DNA from: a virus
DNA length: 36,217 bases
Direction: 5' to 3' (one strand)
Virus record (IMG/VR): IMGVR_UViG_3300050030_000049
Coordinates: 1 to 36,217 of that record
The notes below the pieces were generated by a model. That model was not told the DNA's origin, did no database searches, and saw nothing but the letters and a program-made list of their open reading frames with translations. Both the position numbers and the translations under genes were made by a program. The stretch's first letter is position 1. The number at the start of each line of letters is the position of its first letter. Positions 3,683 through 36,217 of the stretch are shown one piece after another.

Positions 3683-4369
3683 TTATTCCTTTGGAACTTC
3701 CAAGGCTTTACGTCTGAGTAAATAAAATCTTTTTTCACTTGGGAATTGTACGTCAGTAACTTTACCATTTTCATTAACTTGTATGCCGGAAATCCAATAA
3801 TTAACTTGTATGCCGGAAATCCAATAAATAACTTCCCAGTTTGGGAACTCTTGAATTTTTGACAATACTTCACGTGGATGCATGTGTGGTGCTAAAGGCA
3901 AGCCATCAGTAGTAAACTGACTATTAGTATCTGTACTATAAATGATAATGTATTTACCACAGAACTTGTTGAACAGCAAATCACACATGTCCAAGAAATC
4001 CTTATCAGAGGTTTGATGAAACCACACGTCAAGACATAACATCAAGTGTGACGATAATTCTAAATTCTTTAAGTCAGAAGTAAATTCATACTTGAGACTA
4101 TTTGGTATTTTACGGGTCTTTTCCTTGCAAATTTCAATTGCTTTTGGACTAATGTCATAACCACTATAAGCAATGGGTATTTTATACATCAGTAGATTTG
4201 CACCATCCCCACAACCAAATTCCGAAATTGTACGAATGCCAAATTGTTGTACCCAATGATTTATTATTGTTGCTTTCATAAGTGCTTCTTGACCATAACT
4301 GCCTGCTCCGGACGACCCCCCATTTACATACCTTGAATTCCAGTATTCTGCTAAATTAAATGTTTCCAT
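3683..4369 (-). CDS. Class I SAM-dependent methyltransferase
   Basis: 228 residues. Residues about 48-57 (ISEFGCGDGANLL) form the glycine-rich motif I that binds S-adenosylmethionine. SGYDISPKAIEICKEK is the usual motif II region with the acidic ribose-binding residue, and LMLCLDVWFHQT is a post-motif region. There is no DNA-methyltransferase catalytic motif (DPPY/NPPF or PC), so a small molecule, sugar or protein substrate is more likely. It is the last gene of a minus-strand operon with two glycosyltransferase-like genes, so glycan methylation is one reasonable guess. It contains a 27-bp in-frame tandem duplication (YWISGIQVN twice). Start at 4369 overlaps the HNH gene end by 14 bases. Confidence 0.8.
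   Translation of the reverse strand: METFNLAEYWNSRYVNGGSSGAGSYGQEALMKATIINHWVQQFGIRTISEFGCGDGANLLMYKIPIAYSGYDISPKAIEICKEKTRKIPNSLKYEFTSDLKNLELSSHLMLCLDVWFHQTSDKDFLDMCDLLFNKFCGKYIIIYSTDTNSQFTTDGLPLAPHMHPREVLSKIQEFPNWEVIYWISGIQVNYWISGIQVNENGKVTDVQFPSEKRFYLLRRKALEVPKE
3773..3827. repeat. Perfect 27-bp tandem duplication inside the methyltransferase gene
   Basis: Two adjacent identical 27-base units (3773-3799 and 3800-3826) encode YWISGIQVN twice in a row near the C-terminus. The absence of any mismatch suggests a recent slippage event. Confidence 0.95.
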
Positions 4370-4883
4370 AAGTTTCTTTTTTATAATTTCTATTATTTAT
4401 TACGCCATCAATTGTTTCTCTGCATACGCCAAATTTTATTGCAAATTCTTTACGTGATGTTTTACCTATTGATGAACGTATTTCTTTTACTTGTTGAGTT
4501 GATAGTTTATGAAGATGATTAGCATTCATTAAACCAGTACGAAATGCATGTTGTTTATTCTCTTTTGAAGTACACCATTCAAGATTATCAACACAACAAT
4601 TTGTTTTAATACCATCTTTATGATTAACCTCTGGTAAATTAAGTGGATTAGGTATAAATGCTTTTGCTACCATTACATGAATTCTAAATCGTCTTGCAAC
4701 TTTATCTTTTGATAATTTGGTTGAAAGATAACCATTAGTATCTACATTATTAGTAAGAATTCTTTCTGGTTGTAAATAAGTAACTTTAGCATTATTTCTA
4801 AATTTAGCAAGTGATTTTACTTCACCACATTCGTTAATTTGATAACGACCCTCATACTCTTCAATGTCTTTCCAGATTTCCAT
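4356..4883 (-). CDS. NUMOD4-HNH free-standing homing endonuclease (copy 1)
   Basis: 175 residues. The N-terminus EIWKDIEEYEGRYQINECG is a NUMOD4 DNA-binding motif. RIHVMVAKAFIPNP, then PEVNHKDG and NLEWCTSKEN, form the HNH_3-type nuclease core. The C-terminal part (LSTQQVKEIRSS... CRETIDGVINNRNY) looks like a helix-turn-helix specificity domain. Such enzymes nick DNA and promote copying of their own gene. The start overlaps the upstream gene's stop as TAATG, and the end overlaps the methyltransferase start, so this copy is fully woven into the operon. Two relatives lie at 18645 and 24387. Confidence 0.92.
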   Translation of the reverse strand: MEIWKDIEEYEGRYQINECGEVKSLAKFRNNAKVTYLQPERILTNNVDTNGYLSTKLSKDKVARRFRIHVMVAKAFIPNPLNLPEVNHKDGIKTNCCVDNLEWCTSKENKQHAFRTGLMNANHLHKLSTQQVKEIRSSIGKTSRKEFAIKFGVCRETIDGVINNRNYKKETYGNI

Positions 4884-5602
4884 TATTTTAATTGTTTGAA
4901 GCCGTAAATAATAAAAGTGGTTTGTATAATGTCTGCGTTTGGTTTTAAGGCGTATTCATTAAAAACATAGTATTCATCAGGAAGTTGCTCTTTATGTCGG
5001 ATGTAACCTTCTTCATGTGCAAGAACAACTCTTTTAATACCTGCCTTTTTCATGTTGTAACTGACATATAAATCATCCATTGAAACATTACCACATTGAT
5101 TGTACCATTCTGAATAATCCTTAAACCATTCACGTTTCCAGAGACTTCCGCAGTTAGATGCAATGTCAACTTCAATGTTACCTATGACTTCTTTAAGTCC
5201 ACGAAAGACTGTCCGGTCACGATAATAAGATTGAATCAAACCTTGATTAAGCACTACTCCGTGCAATGAAACCATTGCTTGAAAATCCTCACAACCTCTG
5301 ATAAGATAGGCAAGAAAATCTGGTGGGTATAGAATGTCATTATCAACGAGACAAATATAAGGATTTTTGCCATCGGCTAAGTATTGTAACTTGGAATTAC
5401 TTCCTTTAGCATTGTCACCACGATAGATAGTAATCCTATCATCACTACTTAATTCTCGTTGAACATACTCAAATTGGTCTTCAGTATAGTTATTCAATGT
5501 CAATGTAGCAGTGCCAAATTCTGGCTGAAATCTCAGACTGTTGATTGTCTGAACTTCGAAGCCATGTCGCCAGATACATGCACAATAGATGTCAACTTTC
5601 AT
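4883..5602 (-). CDS. GT-A type glycosyltransferase-like protein
   Basis: 239 residues from the chosen start. MKVDIYCACIWRHGFEVQTI begins a Rossmann-like strand. Around residues 75-100, SKLQYLADGKNPYICLVDND shows the DxD-type metal and nucleotide-sugar site (DND) of family 2-like enzymes. A Trp- and Asp-rich acceptor region follows (WFKDYSEWYNQCGNVSMDDL). The start at 5602 is chosen because it makes an ATGA overlap with the upstream gene; an in-frame ATG at 5629 is the alternative. With the second such enzyme at 5946-6554 it suggests sugar decoration of the virion or host surface. The substrate cannot be told. Confidence 0.75.
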   Translation of the reverse strand: MKVDIYCACIWRHGFEVQTINSLRFQPEFGTATLTLNNYTEDQFEYVQRELSSDDRITIYRGDNAKGSNSKLQYLADGKNPYICLVDNDILYPPDFLAYLIRGCEDFQAMVSLHGVVLNQGLIQSYYRDRTVFRGLKEVIGNIEVDIASNCGSLWKREWFKDYSEWYNQCGNVSMDDLYVSYNMKKAGIKRVVLAHEEGYIRHKEQLPDEYYVFNEYALKPNADIIQTTFIIYGFKQLK

Positions 5603-5796
5603 TGGTATAACTGTGTTAATTTCTTCCATTCTCTGGTCAAGCCATAGATGTATTGTATGTCTTCACCTGCTGAGTTTATGGCATATACTAATTCATTTTT
5701 ACTGCAATTTAAGGTTAAGTAATCACCTTCAATGCTGAAATGTAATTCAAGTGCCTCAAGCAAAATTCTCATTTCAAGTGTGTTATTTACTGTCAT
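5599..5796 (-). CDS. Small hypothetical protein (65 residues)
   Basis: A short ORF (MTVNNTLEMRILLEALEL...) with a helical N-terminal half and a mixed C-terminus ending LTREWKKLTQLYQ. No membrane segment, no recognised family. It is accepted as real because it fills the space between two operon genes with the usual short overlaps: ATGA with the downstream glycosyltransferase and 14 bases with the upstream small gene. Confidence 0.6.
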   Translation of the reverse strand: MTVNNTLEMRILLEALELHFSIEGDYLTLNCSKNELVYAINSAGEDIQYIYGLTREWKKLTQLYQ

Positions 5797-5968
5797 TTTC
5801 TTTTAATTGTTTATTAATTTTTTTTATTGCTTCCTCATCATAAAATACAGCATAAAATTCTCTATCAAAATTATCTCTTACAAGATACATTCTTCCTGCT
5901 TCAATAGTTTCAACAGATTCTAAAAATTTTATGTTAAATCTTTCATTAGAGTCCATAATTATTTCCAT
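5783..5968 (-). CDS. Small hypothetical protein (61 residues)
   Basis: Translation begins MEIIMDSNERFNIKFLESVE. It is acidic, probably alpha/beta, and ends in a charged helix (EEAIKKINKQLKEND). It overlaps the end of the glycosyltransferase gene (5946) by 23 bases if the first ATG is used; a second ATG at 5956 would shorten this. No family recognised. Accepted on operon context. Confidence 0.55.
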   Translation of the reverse strand: MEIIMDSNERFNIKFLESVETIEAGRMYLVRDNFDREFYAVFYDEEAIKKINKQLKENDSK

Positions 5969-6554
5969 GTGGTCCTTTCTGAGTTTTAGTTAATACTTTA
6001 TCAATCCATTTTAATTCCAGACCTTTTGCTTCAAGTTGTTTTCCTACACGATAATCTCCCATTGAAAATCTCCCCCAATCTACAGGATTGTGTTTTGAAT
6101 GATACATAAATCCTATGCCACTAAAATCACAGGCAGTAATTGCTTTGCCAAAACTATGTGAAGGCACACTCCAATTTGGAAGTATCTGTACTTTCCAGAT
6201 AAGTAGTTGGTCTTCATGGTCAATGTTATCAACAATTGTCTGTAGACTATTTTCATCAACAAAAGCATCATCGTCATCAATTGCAAGACACCATTCTTGA
6301 GTGCAACTATTAGCCAAATCATTAAGTAATAAGTTGTGTGGCGCATAATAATGTCCTTGTGGAACAACCAAATTATCCGGTCTGGTCTCAAGTTTCAGTG
6401 GTCTGGCAAAACGATAATACTCGCATGGTACATCACTACCAACTATAAAAGCAAAGTTTGGATAGGATTGTTTCATGACTGATTGATAACAGACCTTGAA
6501 CATGTCTTCTCGATTGTGAGTGCGACAGAGTATATTTATGATTGGCTTAGTCAT
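5946..6554 (-). CDS. Family 2-like glycosyltransferase
   Basis: 202 residues from the chosen start. The N-terminus KPIINILCRTHNREDMFKVC and SVMKQSYPNFAFIVGSD match the opening of GT2 enzymes. WCLAIDDDDAFVDENSLQ supplies the acidic DxD metal site, and the C-terminus has a W-rich acceptor segment. It would transfer a sugar from a nucleotide sugar. The ATG at 6554 is preferred over 6581 because ATGACTAA gives an 8-base overlap with the upstream stop, typical of this operon. The acceptor is unknown. Confidence 0.78.
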   Translation of the reverse strand: MTKPIINILCRTHNREDMFKVCYQSVMKQSYPNFAFIVGSDVPCEYYRFARPLKLETRPDNLVVPQGHYYAPHNLLLNDLANSCTQEWCLAIDDDDAFVDENSLQTIVDNIDHEDQLLIWKVQILPNWSVPSHSFGKAITACDFSGIGFMYHSKHNPVDWGRFSMGDYRVGKQLEAKGLELKWIDKVLTKTQKGPHGNNYGL

Positions 6555-6843
6555 CGTCTGCACAAGTAAAGAGATTGTCAAGGTCTGTTAATGTTGGCTT
6601 ATCACCGACAAGCATTTCTTCAAGTGCTTCTTGTGAAGTCAACCATTGGAAGTATTCATCCGGTTGCATTTCGGCTATTCTTGTAGCCATGAACATTTCT
6701 GAGGATTTACTCATTGATTGCGAGTTTATGTAAGAGTTTATTTGCTTTGCAAGGCTTTCCATCTTGATGTGCTTGTATTTCAACTGCGTAAAGTACATGC
6801 ATTGTCTCTTGGAATCCCAAGCGGTCTTTTTGTAAATAGTCAT
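6547..6843 (-). CDS. Hypothetical protein (98 residues)
   Basis: A soluble, mostly helical protein (LKYKHIKMESLAKQINSYI, then RIAEMQPDEYFQWLTSQ) with a very acidic C-terminus ending CADDD. No family recognised. It is the second gene of the minus-strand operon, 42 bases after the first, and its stop overlaps the glycosyltransferase start. Function cannot be inferred. Confidence 0.65.
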   Translation of the reverse strand: MTIYKKTAWDSKRQCMYFTQLKYKHIKMESLAKQINSYINSQSMSKSSEMFMATRIAEMQPDEYFQWLTSQEALEEMLVGDKPTLTDLDNLFTCADDD

Positions 6844-6885
6844 ATAGACTAATCCACGATTGATGATTTGCTGGTGGTTTTCTCA

Positions 6886-7362
6886 TTAGAATGAATTGAA
6901 TAAGTCGGTTAATTCTTGAAAGTTTACACCTTTTAATTCACGTGCATATACCATACGTGAAGTCTTGTAGCAACCGTCATGTCTAAACCAAGCCATTTCC
7001 GGTACTTGAATCTCATTACGTAAGAATTGTATTCCGGCTTGAGTTAATCTCCAGTCACCTTTACTACGGAACTTCTGTTTTGATTCATTATGATTTTCGA
7101 TTAACCACCAAGGATTATCAGACATGCAACCGTATGCAGTTAATAACATCGGTTTCCATTTACCGTCAACCCATTTACCAAAGTGCTTGGCAACTAAATC
7201 CTGCACTTCTCTATAGTTGACCCAGTTGTTTTCATTGGCTTTGTCATACTTACCTATATGACCAAGTGCCATTAACCATATAAGATTTCTCTTAGTCAAG
7301 GTTACTTTGTAATCAACAATTGGCTGACAACATGTTTCGCAATAAATTTGATTGTTTACCAT
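6886..7362 (-). CDS. Hypothetical early protein with N-terminal Cys pair
   Basis: 158 residues from ATG 7362. The N-terminus VNNQIYCETCCQPIV carries a CxxCC cluster that could bind a metal, but no second pair is obvious. The middle (LIWLMALGHIGKYDKANEN, then YREVQDLVAKHFGKWVDGKW) and DWRLTQAGIQFLRNEI look like a winged-helix-type fold. The longer start at 7413 is rejected because it would overlap the promoter at 7383-7414. As the first gene behind a strong host-type promoter it may be an early regulatory or host-takeover protein; this is a guess. Confidence 0.7.
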   Translation of the reverse strand: MVNNQIYCETCCQPIVDYKVTLTKRNLIWLMALGHIGKYDKANENNWVNYREVQDLVAKHFGKWVDGKWKPMLLTAYGCMSDNPWWLIENHNESKQKFRSKGDWRLTQAGIQFLRNEIQVPEMAWFRHDGCYKTSRMVYARELKGVNFQELTDLFNSF

Positions 7363-7382
7363 AATTTCTGAATTTGTTTCTG

Positions 7383-7414
7383 CAAATATACGAAGGATAA
7401 TTTTAATTAGCAAA
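7383..7414 (-). promoter_or_regulatory. Bacteroidetes-type promoter for the minus-strand operon
   Basis: On the minus strand, TTTG (7411-7414), a 20-base spacer, then TATATTTG (7383-7390), a perfect match to the Bacteroidetes TTTG/TAnnTTTG consensus. The predicted transcript start near 7379 leaves a leader of about 17 bases before the ATG at 7362. Confidence 0.85.
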
Positions 7415-7488: not shown

Positions 7489-8115
7489 ATGTTAAAACCA
7501 AATTATTTTCAGATTAGTATCTCACACTATAATAGTGTAGAGGCACTTTCGGTACGACAGAAGTACCAATGGGCAGGTTATGGATTATACTTAGCCATCA
7601 TGCAAATACTTGCCAATGCACCGGATAGAATTCTTCCGTTAAGCAAACTGAGTCAGTTAGCATACGAGTTACGTATCAGTGAGGAAGTGCTTACTGACAT
7701 AGTAAGGAGTTATTTTGAAATTGTTGATGATTATTTCTACTCACAAGAGTTGGAAAATGGTGTCAGTGCCTATATTAAGAAAGTATCTACACTTAATCCA
7801 AGTAATGGTGGTAAGGCAAGTGCAGCAAGTATGACTGCGGAAGAACGTATTGAACGTAGTAAGAAAGCACTTGCTGCTAAAGCAAGCAAACGACTTGCTA
7901 AGAGTATTGTACCGGATAGTAACGGATTGGATAGTAGTGTAGAGAAAAGTATCGTAGTGGACAGTATAGTAAAGGATAGTATAGTACCGAGTCAGCAAGC
8001 AGACTCTAACAGTATCAGTAAGCAAGTGCTCACTGTGCCAGCAAGCAACTTGCAAAAACAACTAACTGATTCAGCAAGCAAAGATTTTAATTCTGATGTT
8101 ATTGAATTTGATTAA
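7489..8115 (+). CDS. DUF4373-like phage replication-associated protein
   Basis: 208 residues. Residues 1-95 (FQISISHYNSVEALSVRQKYQWAGYGLY... IMQILANAPD... LPLSKLSQLAYELRISEEVL) resemble the DUF4373/Lin1244-like N-terminal domain, a winged-helix fold found in phage replication and initiator proteins. The C-terminal half is low complexity: an alanine/lysine-rich helix, then pentapeptide repeats of the type SIVxD (about residues 139-168), then a Ser/Gln-rich tail. The repeats coincide with six 15-bp DNA units that could serve as iterons. First gene after a host-type promoter, so early. Replication initiation is inferred. Confidence 0.7.
   Translation: MLKPNYFQISISHYNSVEALSVRQKYQWAGYGLYLAIMQILANAPDRILPLSKLSQLAYELRISEEVLTDIVRSYFEIVDDYFYSQELENGVSAYIKKVSTLNPSNGGKASAASMTAEERIERSKKALAAKASKRLAKSIVPDSNGLDSSVEKSIVVDSIVKDSIVPSQQADSNSISKQVLTVPASNLQKQLTDSASKDFNSDVIEFD
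7903..7992 (+). repeat. Six degenerate 15-bp tandem units (possible iterons) in the DUF4373-like gene
   Basis: Units start at 7903, 7918, 7933, 7948, 7963 and 7978. Each begins AGTA, and most end in GGAT or a close variant. They encode the SIVxD pentapeptide repeats. Iterons inside an initiator gene are known from lambdoid phages, so an origin is possible. Confidence 0.6.
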
Positions 8116-8125
8116 TCCAATTCCA

Positions 8126-8560
8126 ATGGTTATAATTGAAATTATCAATCTCAATGAAAAAGAAGTTTATGATTATGGTATGACACCAAGTCAGTGTAAC
8201 TTCTTAGAATTGCTTTGTAAGAAGAATGGTTATGCAAGTGCATTCAATAGGTATGTACTTATGGATGGTTATGAAAAGTCTTGTTATCATCTTACCAAGT
8301 CAATGGCAAGGATGTGGATAGATGCATTGGTTGAGAAGAAAGAATTTAAACTCGTTACACCTAATACTCCAAATAAGATTAAAGTACCAATCTTAACTCC
8401 AATTGATAATCCGTACTTCCAATGGACAGGTGAAGTTTTTATAGGTGTTGATTTAGCAGAAATGGAATCCAAGATGATTGACCCGGATGTCGTAGAAGTA
8501 TCGGACATTATGAAACAAGTAATAGCAATGAGAAAATCTAATATAACATTCAATGAATAA
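8126..8560 (+). CDS. Hypothetical early protein (144 residues)
   Basis: Start taken at ATG 8126 (MVIIEIINLNEKEVYDYG), which leaves a 10-base gap after the previous stop; the track start at 8096 would force an overlap. The protein is alpha/beta, with a helical middle (LTKSMARMWIDALVEKKEF) that looks like a winged-helix element followed by beta-rich residues. No family is recognised. The position between the replication-type gene and a small basic gene suggests an early role. Confidence 0.65.
   Translation: MVIIEIINLNEKEVYDYGMTPSQCNFLELLCKKNGYASAFNRYVLMDGYEKSCYHLTKSMARMWIDALVEKKEFKLVTPNTPNKIKVPILTPIDNPYFQWTGEVFIGVDLAEMESKMIDPDVVEVSDIMKQVIAMRKSNITFNE
8538..8548 (-). promoter_or_regulatory. Minus-strand copy of the late motif core
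   Basis: On the minus strand this reads TGTTATATTAG, lacking only the first G of the 12-base core. It is within the 3' end of the upstream gene and would point antisense into early genes. It may be chance or a weak antisense promoter. Confidence 0.3.
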
Positions 8561-8825
8561 ACAATTAAAGAAAGCCGTTAAGAAATACGGTAAGATGTGT
8601 GATGTATTCACAAACCCAAAGCATGAAGAACGTAAAGCCGAGAGATTGAAATGGAAAGACAAGGATTTAGATGCTGACCCAAAACCAATTGGTGTTAAAG
8701 CACTCCAAGCAGAGGTAAAAAAGTATGCTGATTTGTCAAGTCCATTCAAGTTGAAAAATGACCGTGCAACTCCAAGTTATTATGCTAATGATAAACCAAT
8801 ACCAAGATTTGAAAAAAATAATTGA
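8553..8825 (+). CDS. Small basic hypothetical protein (90 residues)
   Basis: Lys-rich throughout (MNKQLKKAVKKYGKMCDV, KHEERKAERLKWKDKD), with a Pro- and Tyr-containing C-terminus. No membrane segment or recognised family. It overlaps the previous gene by 8 bases (ATGAATAA), a coupling arrangement seen repeatedly in this genome. The charge suggests nucleic acid binding, but nothing diagnostic is present. Confidence 0.6.
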   Translation: MNKQLKKAVKKYGKMCDVFTNPKHEERKAERLKWKDKDLDADPKPIGVKALQAEVKKYADLSSPFKLKNDRATPSYYANDKPIPRFEKNN

Positions 8826-8865
8826 TGTTTTATGTAACATTATCCAATCTCAAACGTATAATGTG

Positions 8866-9058
8866 TATAATCTCCGGTAAAATTGAGTTGAGTAATCCTC
8901 AAGTGGTGTGACAAGCATCATCCAACTGGGAGTAGTTTTGAAAGGTAGGACATGGCAAGTATACATTGCAGAGTTGTCTGAGAGATAGAAAGTGCAACTC
9001 CAACCACACCGGAGATTTCCTTTAAAGCCAATGCCACCATACATTGGCTTTATTTTTT
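8866..9058 (+). ncRNA. Candidate structured RNA in the intergenic region, ended by a terminator
   Basis: No plus-strand gene occupies 8826-9091. AATCTCCGGT (8869-8878) is perfectly complementary to ACCGGAGATT (9008-9017), closing about 150 nt. Inside it GGTGTG (8905-8910) pairs with CACACC (9005-9010), either stacking on a 7-bp form of the first helix or competing with its last 3 pairs. Local hairpins are possible at 8888-8902 (TTGAG/CTCAA), 8953-8970 (bulged) and 8971-9000 (GAGTTG/CAACTC). A Rho-independent terminator follows directly. No known riboswitch class is recognised, and no clear promoter precedes it, so it may be the 3' part of the upstream mRNA or an independent RNA. Confidence 0.55.
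9023..9058 (+). terminator. Rho-independent terminator
   Basis: Perfect 11-bp stem TAAAGCCAATG/CATTGGCTTTA (9023-9033 and 9042-9052), an 8-base loop, then six T. It separates the replication unit and structured RNA from the next promoter, which starts two bases later. Confidence 0.9.
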
Positions 9059-9059
9059 C

Positions 9060-9090
9060 TTGACATTCTCATTCCAATTGACTATCTTTG
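9060..9090 (+). promoter_or_regulatory. Bacteroidetes-type promoter for the second early unit
   Basis: TTG at 9060-9062, 20 bases, then TATCTTTG at 9083-9090, a perfect -7 element. Start codons lie at 9092 and 9095, so the transcript would begin at or next to the ATG and be leaderless. Confidence 0.8.
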
Positions 9091-9091
9091 C

Positions 9092-9445
9092 ATGATGAAA
9101 CCACAATCAGCCAAAGCCAAAGGTCGTTTACTCCAACAACGAATCCGTGACATGATTCTTCAAGAATTTCCGGAGTTACAAGAAGATGATGTTACATCAA
9201 GGTCAATGGGAGCAGCAGGTGTAGATGTACTACTAAGTCCAAAAGCACAAAAAGTATTTCCATTTTCAATTGAAGCAAAAAACCAACAAGCATTGAATGT
9301 CTGGTCAGCCATGAAACAGGCAGAAAGCAATGCAAAAAATAATATACCTCTCTTGGTATTTCATCGTAATCATTCAAGTATTTATGCATGTCTACCAATT
9401 GAGGACTTGTTTAAAATACTCAAGAATGAAACTAAAACTACGTAG
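9092..9445 (+). CDS. Putative PD-(D/E)XK endonuclease (Holliday junction resolvase-like)
   Basis: 117 residues. The core is GAAGVDVLLSPKA... FPFSIEAKNQ: an Asp in VDV, then Glu-x-Lys in the next strand (EAK), the catalytic D-ExK pattern of this nuclease superfamily. LLVFHRNHSSIYACLPIEDL supplies the following strands. Phage proteins of this type are annotated as PDDEXK endonucleases or resolvases and act on recombination or packaging intermediates. The start is 9092 or 9095 because the promoter -7 element ends at 9090; the upstream ATG at 9044 lies in the terminator. It overlaps the next gene by 20 bases. Confidence 0.8.
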   Translation: MMKPQSAKAKGRLLQQRIRDMILQEFPELQEDDVTSRSMGAAGVDVLLSPKAQKVFPFSIEAKNQQALNVWSAMKQAESNAKNNIPLLVFHRNHSSIYACLPIEDLFKILKNETKTT

Positions 9446-10135: not shown

Positions 10136-10945
10136 ATGACTGGTGATACTAAAGTACTTGAATTTAATCAATTTTTTGTCGGCAATTATAAACACCTACT
10201 TGGCTTTGTCAATCTATTCCGAAAGGAAGAATACGCAGAGGACATTCTTCATGATGTCTTTATCAAGTGCTACAAAGCCATTAGTTTTAGTGGATACTCA
10301 GGCAATAGTTATCTAAGTTACACCAAGAGAGCAATAGGTAACACAAGGACCAATCATTTTCGTAATGCCAAGAATAGCGTTGATTTACTATCTCCGGTTG
10401 ATTATCTTCCGGCAGAATTTAATGACACCTATGAAAGTGAAGCAGAGTTAAAACTTCTGCAACAACAGCAAGATGAATTGTTGGAAGTAGATAGGCAGAA
10501 TGATGTAAACTTCAAACATACTATGGCATTCGAGTACGTGGATAAGTACTTCTCAGAGAAAGACCGGATGGTATTCAAGACTTATTATGTGTTGAAGCAC
10601 AAACATCTTAATTATAAACAACTGTCGATTGCAACATCAATGAGCCAATCAACAGTCTCAAACATAATCAAAAACATTAAGAAAGAATTGAGAATCAATC
10701 TTGAGTGTTATATTAGTACTAACATGAATCTTATGGAATTAACGGAGAAAGTACAGAAAGTCGAAGCATTACTGCAAAAAGACCTACGACATAACTTAGG
10801 TGAATATAAAGCATGGTATTTACAAGTCTTTGGTAAATCGTGGTCAGGATGCGGGTGCAACTTGAATCAAATCCGTGAAAGTCTCAAGGCATGGCATGCG
10901 AAAAATCGGGCAATCTTAGCAGAACAATCAAAAATTATACAATAA
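10136..10945 (+). CDS. Phage-encoded sigma-70 family (ECF-like) sigma factor
   Basis: 269 residues. Region 2 spans about residues 8-78: EEYAEDILHDVFIKCYKAIS is the conserved core-binding helix, and SYTKRAIGNTRTNHFRNAK the -10-recognition helix. Region 4 spans about 138-188, with helix-turn-helix YKQLSIATSMSQSTVSNIIK for the -35. The domain order is that of ECF sigma factors. It differs from them in a C-terminal extension of about 75 residues starting at an internal Met (197). A perfect late-motif copy lies in the coding sequence just after region 4. It sits in an early unit and is the obvious candidate to drive the GTGTTATATTAG promoters of the virion genes. Confidence 0.88.
   Translation: MTGDTKVLEFNQFFVGNYKHLLGFVNLFRKEEYAEDILHDVFIKCYKAISFSGYSGNSYLSYTKRAIGNTRTNHFRNAKNSVDLLSPVDYLPAEFNDTYESEAELKLLQQQQDELLEVDRQNDVNFKHTMAFEYVDKYFSEKDRMVFKTYYVLKHKHLNYKQLSIATSMSQSTVSNIIKNIKKELRINLECYISTNMNLMELTEKVQKVEALLQKDLRHNLGEYKAWYLQVFGKSWSGCGCNLNQIRESLKAWHAKNRAILAEQSKIIQ
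10705..10718 (+). promoter_or_regulatory. Late-promoter-like motif inside the sigma factor gene
   Basis: Perfect GTGTTATATTAGTA, five bases before an in-frame ATG (10724) that would give a separate 73-residue protein covering the sigma C-terminal extension. It encodes Glu-Cys-Tyr-Ile-Ser-Thr of the full-length protein. It could drive the downstream genes (small ORFs, terminase) late in infection. Confidence 0.65.
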
Positions 10946-11578: not shown

Positions 11579-12017
11579 GAAAAATCAATTGGTAAAAAAG
11601 CCGGTAAGTGTATTGGTAAGCAAACAACGTGTGGTTGAAGTTGCTGCAATGTTATTAAATTTTAAAAGTCGCAGGTATATTATTGATGAACTCACAAGTA
11701 AGTATGGCATTGCACAAAGAAGTTGTGATGCAATAATTACTCGTGCTTACCAATACATCAAAGACAACTATAAAACAGACCGGGAATCTGTCATCATTAC
11801 TCACCTGGAATTCTACTATGACCTGGCTCAAGAATGGAAGACCGTAGACCCACGAGCATCGTTAAAAGCATTAGAACAAATAGAGAAATTACTGAAACTG
11901 CACCAAGACGTACCACTTATTCAACAAAATACTTTAAACTTGAATTTCGAAAAGATTAGTACTGAGGAACTTCTGAAGGCAATTGACAATATAAAGCAAG
12001 GTAAAAAGGATGCGTAA
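11571..12017 (+). CDS. Terminase small subunit-like protein
   Basis: 148 residues from ATG 11571. An N-terminal helix-turn-helix region (VEVAAMLLNFKSRRYIIDEL, SKYGIAQRSCDAIITRAYQY) is followed by a long helical section and a C-terminal oligomerisation-like helix. This layout is typical of TerS proteins, which recognise phage DNA and hand it to TerL. It lies two genes before terL. The start at 11571 gives an ATGAATAA overlap with the previous gene; GTG 11553 and ATG 11559 are alternatives. The TerS call comes from layout and position. Confidence 0.65.
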   Translation: MNKKNQLVKKPVSVLVSKQRVVEVAAMLLNFKSRRYIIDELTSKYGIAQRSCDAIITRAYQYIKDNYKTDRESVIITHLEFYYDLAQEWKTVDPRASLKALEQIEKLLKLHQDVPLIQQNTLNLNFEKISTEELLKAIDNIKQGKKDA

Positions 12018-36085: not shown

Positions 36086-36099
36086 TAATTTTTATAACA

Positions 36100-36165
36100 A
36101 TGGCAGATTGTCAACGAAGTTTGGCAACTACAGACAAAGCAAAAAATAACTCAGAACATCCGTGA
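36100..36165 (+). pseudogene. Possible 5' end of another gene joined to the 110-bp repeat
   Basis: ATGGCAGATTG begins an ORF 14 bases after the LamG stop and continues into the repeat, giving only 21 codons before TGA, in a frame not used by the left copy. It looks like the start of a gene (perhaps the LamG gene whose end is at 2-547) cut off by the join. Confidence 0.35.
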
Positions 36166-36217
36166 ATGGATTGAGAGAAACACAGATAAACTCTAATGAG
36201 CAATGAACGCAACAACA
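36108..36217 (+). repeat. 110-bp direct repeat, right copy (identical to 578-687)
   Basis: The last 110 bases equal 578-687. Upstream of the copies the sequences differ completely. If the circle is closed through this repeat it is 35,530 bp and lacks the LamG segment at 1-577. Confidence 0.9.

Follow-up and report, generated by a model that had tools for sequence, protein, structure and literature searches.

A possible orphan small RNA with paired ends in the longest intergenic gap of a virulent-looking phage with a predicted Bacteroidota host

The window analyzed here is a single virus record of 36,217 bases, which encodes a terminase (phrog_38, E = 2e-78) and a portal protein, with structural genes oriented rightward. 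Glycosyltransferase-like, methyltransferase-like and HNH genes are found in a leftward block at 3683-7413, and the rightward early block begins at 7489. No integrase or repressor was recognized among the proteins scanned in the window, and the phage looks virulent. Shine-Dalgarno sequences are absent from 26 of the 27 genes checked. Two early blocks are headed by perfect matches to TTG-N20-TAnnTTTG, the Bacteroides promoter consensus, a pattern whose whole-set count is not enriched over shuffles when one mismatch is allowed. The top terminase matches are to Chryseobacterium and Croceibacter phages, with Cellulophaga phages close behind. In combination, the expression signals and the terminase matches point to a Bacteroidota bacterium as the most likely host. 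Near both ends of the record lies a 122-bp direct repeat (566-687 and 36096-36217, 97% identical), representing either an imperfectly joined circular assembly or the duplication of a segment among the tail genes.

The motif GTGTTATATTAG occurs in eight exact copies on the plus strand of the window and in none on the minus strand, and the copies sit mostly just upstream of structural genes (Table 1). This motif is probably the late promoter of the phage and is perhaps read by the sigma-like protein encoded at 10136-10945. As an exact motif, it is absent from the relative with 52% terminase identity that is described below.

The feature under study lies in the longest intergenic gap of the genome, between two early genes (Table 1). 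The N-terminus, and hence the start, of the downstream nuclease is common to a relative that is 49% identical. The promoter-like site of the next transcription unit starts directly after the terminator that closes the feature. This site (TTGACA-17-TATCTTTG, within 9060-9097 of the window) ends one base ahead of the first ATG of the nuclease gene, pointing to an mRNA that is leaderless or nearly so. Within the gap, a 64-aa frame on the minus strand and two small frames on the plus strand were found, none of which has a PHROG match, and a tRNA/tmRNA search returned none. The GC content of the core is 43%, in comparison to 36% for the genome.

Table 1. Features in and around the gap, with copies of the candidate late promoter motif (window coordinates).
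Feature	Position	Strand	Details
Longest intergenic gap of the phage genome	8826..9091	.	266 nt, next longest 125 nt; from the gene and gap list
Upstream early gene	8553..8825	+	90 aa, no family; last in the rep-8096-8553 unit
Candidate promoter GTAACA-17-TATAAT	8834..8862	+	10/12 consensus matches; start expected near 8869
Proposed RNA, ends paired, terminator-closed	8869..9058	+	about 190 nt; fold z = -3.1; predicted start and end
Closing helix, 5' arm, AATCTCCGGT	8869..8878	+	
Best-supported interior hairpin	8903..8921	+	7 bp including G-U pairs; 8903-8909/8915-8921, probability 0.70
Closing helix, 3' arm, ACCGGAGATT	9008..9017	+	
Intrinsic terminator	9023..9058	+	11-bp stem 9023-9052, loop 8, T6 (TTTTTT)
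Bacteroidota-type promoter-like site of the next transcription unit	9060..9090	+	TTGACA...TATCTTTG, perfect TTG-N20-TAnnTTTG match
Downstream early gene, RusA-like / PDDEXK nuclease	9092..9445	+	phrog_244, E = 1.6e-17; PF24608, E = 8e-7
GTGTTATATTAG copies	1727, 10705, 13728, 15337, 24889, 26559, 28200, 32860	+	exact match

An earlier note on this DNA had described a perfect 10-bp long-range helix closing about 150 nt and an immediate terminator, and both were recovered. The helix is formed by a perfect inverted repeat with 129 nt between its arms, giving a span of 149 nt, and its pairing probability in the fold ensemble is 0.94. The terminator, which begins 5 nt past the 3' arm, has a probability of 0.98. 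In folds of the growing chain, the closing helix is absent at 9010 and present by 9020. On the other side of the element, the TATAAT of the candidate promoter (8857-8862) ends 6 nt upstream of the 5' arm. A consensus scan found 15 promoter-like sites in the region against 9.5 expected, while a TATAAT is expected to fall inside the 5-nt placement window about 0.5% of the time. This candidate promoter does not conform to the TTG/TAnnTTTG type of Bacteroidota.

A perfect helix of at least 10 bp closing 80-170 nt arises in 1.1% of shuffles of the gap, and seven inverted repeats of this kind are present in the 36-kb window, six of them inside genes. On its own, the 10-bp repeat is modest evidence and only nominally significant. 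What is notable is its placement between a TATAAT box and a terminator within the largest intergenic gap. This placement adds to the modest evidence of the repeat, as does the distance from the last stop codon to the terminator, which is 197 nt here and 9, 15 and 36 nt at the three other terminators checked. Elsewhere in the window, a perfect 14-bp inverted repeat (11609-11622 / 11744-11757) with the same span of 149 nt falls inside a coding frame a short way upstream of the terminase genes; it may serve in packaging or regulation, or be due to chance.

Compared with dinucleotide shuffles, the whole element is more stable (z of about -3.1 to -3.2), and without the terminator its z is -2.3. The interior (8879-9007) has a z of 0.03, its stability being equaled or exceeded by 237 of 500 shuffles, and the structure signal stems almost entirely from the closing helix and the terminator. 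At least three local hairpins had also been proposed. In the ensemble, the best-supported one (Table 1) is followed by 8955-8958/8966-8969 (probability 0.62) and 8888-8892/8898-8902 (probability 0.45), within an interior that is weaker than had been described.

The earlier note recognized no known RNA class here, in agreement with a search of the window against Rfam 15 at the gathering threshold, which gave no match. At a lax threshold, the best candidate was STnc430 (RF02053), which shares a terminator hairpin and a similar 3' end with the element. With 20.4 bits against a gathering score of 47 (E = 1.2), this match was rejected as probably a chance, terminator-driven one. Covariance models of 6S (RF00013) and 6S-Flavo (RF01685) gave no match at E <= 10; the 6S control exceeded the cut-off in four known genomes and the 6S-Flavo control in none, making the 6S-Flavo negative the weaker of the two. 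Searches with blastn against phages and plasmids returned short chance matches only, or none. The exact helix pattern had 10 matches in viral contigs, in line with or under a rough chance estimate, and all were unrelated DNA on inspection.

Protein-guided searches were likewise negative. Scans with neighboring proteins yielded 24 loci for DUF5675, in which synteny was absent, and four for the nuclease, in which the RNA was absent, while those for 8096 and rep yielded no loci. Terminase alignments led to relatives at 39-40% identity and one at 52%, none of which carries the RNA. With a covariance model built from the single sequence, neither the 395 sampled Bacteroidota genomes nor the 76 phage records gave a hit. 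A DNA search of the same 395 genomes gave 13 short matches; the four examined are short local likenesses, and the best spans 47 columns at 81%, apparently in an ftsH-like host gene. No homologue from which covariation could be read was found in the collections searched. At the depth searched, and in collections that may omit very near records, the element appears to be specific to this phage.

The closest relative found, G444 (35,603 bases), was reached via a clade-specific terminase alignment and has the same layout, with 52% identity in the terminase, 55% in the portal and 38% in the sigma-like protein. Its equivalent place, from the early gene to the sigma-like gene, holds a 198-aa reading frame and not an RNA. 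Between its divergent early blocks (L244 9140-9382, minus strand), G444 has two hairpins resembling terminators, separated by about 190 nt. The sequence they enclose is somewhat more stable than its shuffles (z = -2.3) and shows no obvious likeness to the present element by eye; it may be a separate small RNA gene.

The best single reading, which is plausible, unproven and tentative, is that 8869-9058 on the plus strand specifies a non-coding RNA, specific to this phage and about 190 nt long, which is made from its own promoter or released from the 3' end of the early operon. A phage-made small RNA had been one half of the earlier suggestion, and it is favored because an end-pairing helix is combined with a terminator, an Rfam search without a match, the lack of a recognized coding signal and an unusually long gap. 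The well-supported helix and terminator, the stability of the whole element, the placement of the TATAAT box, the 197-nt distance, the elevated GC content and the absence of a recognized protein in the largest gap of a compact genome all speak for this reading. Against it stand the unremarkable interior, the frequency of such a repeat in shuffles, a promoter that is not of the Bacteroidota type, the lack of a homologue and the protein gene found instead in G444. Transcription would start at the TATAAT box (8857), or the RNA may be released by cutting from the 3' end of the rep-8096-8553 transcript. Through the 10-bp repeat, the predicted 5' end would pair with the bases immediately preceding the terminator, and ends zipped in this manner may confer stability. 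The loosely structured interior would then act in trans early in infection, through base pairing or by binding a protein. Also counting against this reading, the best duplex in a search for antisense pairing with the phage's own translation starts was no better than those of shuffles, 90 of 150 being as good.

The second reading comes close behind, and the departure of the candidate promoter from the Bacteroidota type makes it nearly as likely. In this reading, the early operon (rep, 8096, 8553) ends in a long 3' UTR with a terminator, and the repeat is due to chance or serves as a minor stabilizer of the 3' end. The upstream unit needs a terminator, and the first one that follows it is that at 9023-9058; the part of the gap before 8869 lacks a Bacteroidota-type promoter, the window holds seven comparable repeats and the interior is unstructured. 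However, an untranslated tail of 197 nt is atypical for this genome, and the repeat exactly frames the stretch from TATAAT box to terminator.

An element acting at the DNA level, such as a replication origin or an operator near the replication genes with the repeat as protein sites, is unlikely. Its position would suit such a role, as it lies between transcription units and just downstream of a gene weakly resembling those for replication initiation. Nonetheless, there are no direct-repeat arrays but only two short two-copy families, no clear composition-skew switch occurs here beyond the effect of gene direction, and the repeat arms are 129 nt apart.

The other half of the earlier suggestion, a regulatory switch, did not hold. 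It was based on a second helix (8905-8910/9005-9010) proposed to stack on the closing helix or compete with it, and in a riboswitch or attenuator such competition could in principle govern the terminator and the nuclease gene, given that one leader-like stretch contains the terminator, a long-range helix and a 6-bp alternative to it. The second helix has bases 9008-9010 in common with the closing helix, and forcing it costs 5.4 kcal/mol (-49.4 against -54.8). Its pairing probability is about 0, and it is seen only if the 5' arm is held unpaired or the helix is forced. The terminator probability is 0.98 in every fold made, and mutually exclusive helices of similar stability were not found, so that the attenuator was rejected on energies. 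Furthermore, since the nuclease gene is preceded by a promoter-like site of its own that follows the terminator, a cis-acting switch on this gene is very improbable. Equally improbable is a 6S-like RNA, which would bind RNA polymerase by imitating an open promoter. The element resembles 6S RNA in its length near 190 nt and its helix-closed ends, and a rod form of it, in which a 6-bp inner helix (8885-8890/8995-9000) is accompanied by a 6x7 internal loop, lies 1.8 kcal/mol above the minimum. However, that inner helix is weak in the ensemble, neither 6S model was matched at E <= 10 and, unlike 6S and 6S-Flavo RNAs, the element is without a well-defined central bubble and apical stem.

For the small RNA reading, a broader claim may be considered, namely that the element represents a new, narrowly distributed class of end-zipped phage RNAs that act in trans, early in infection, on a Bacteroidota host, and this we regard as doubtful. 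As long as it remains a lone orphan sequence offering one good helix plus a terminator, it opens no question that is testable by comparison. If the RNA is made and needed, it would provide a concrete entry point to the small RNAs of Bacteroidota phages. To our knowledge, functional small RNAs of phages infecting Bacteroidota have been little studied.

Phage-encoded intergenic small RNAs, among them OOP, PreS, 24B_1 and VpdS, have been reviewed elsewhere (PMC12197685). No sequence relation between these RNAs and the present element was found, and the host group differs. In contrast to phage small RNA systems, a lysogeny module was not seen in this phage. Additionally, with regard to expression, a link to Hfq and a target, the element is, unlike members of that class, known from its sequence alone. 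In common with OOP, PreS, 24B_1 and VpdS, it is a short non-coding stretch in a phage genome, and it is by analogy with such phage small RNAs that the element is assumed to act in trans.
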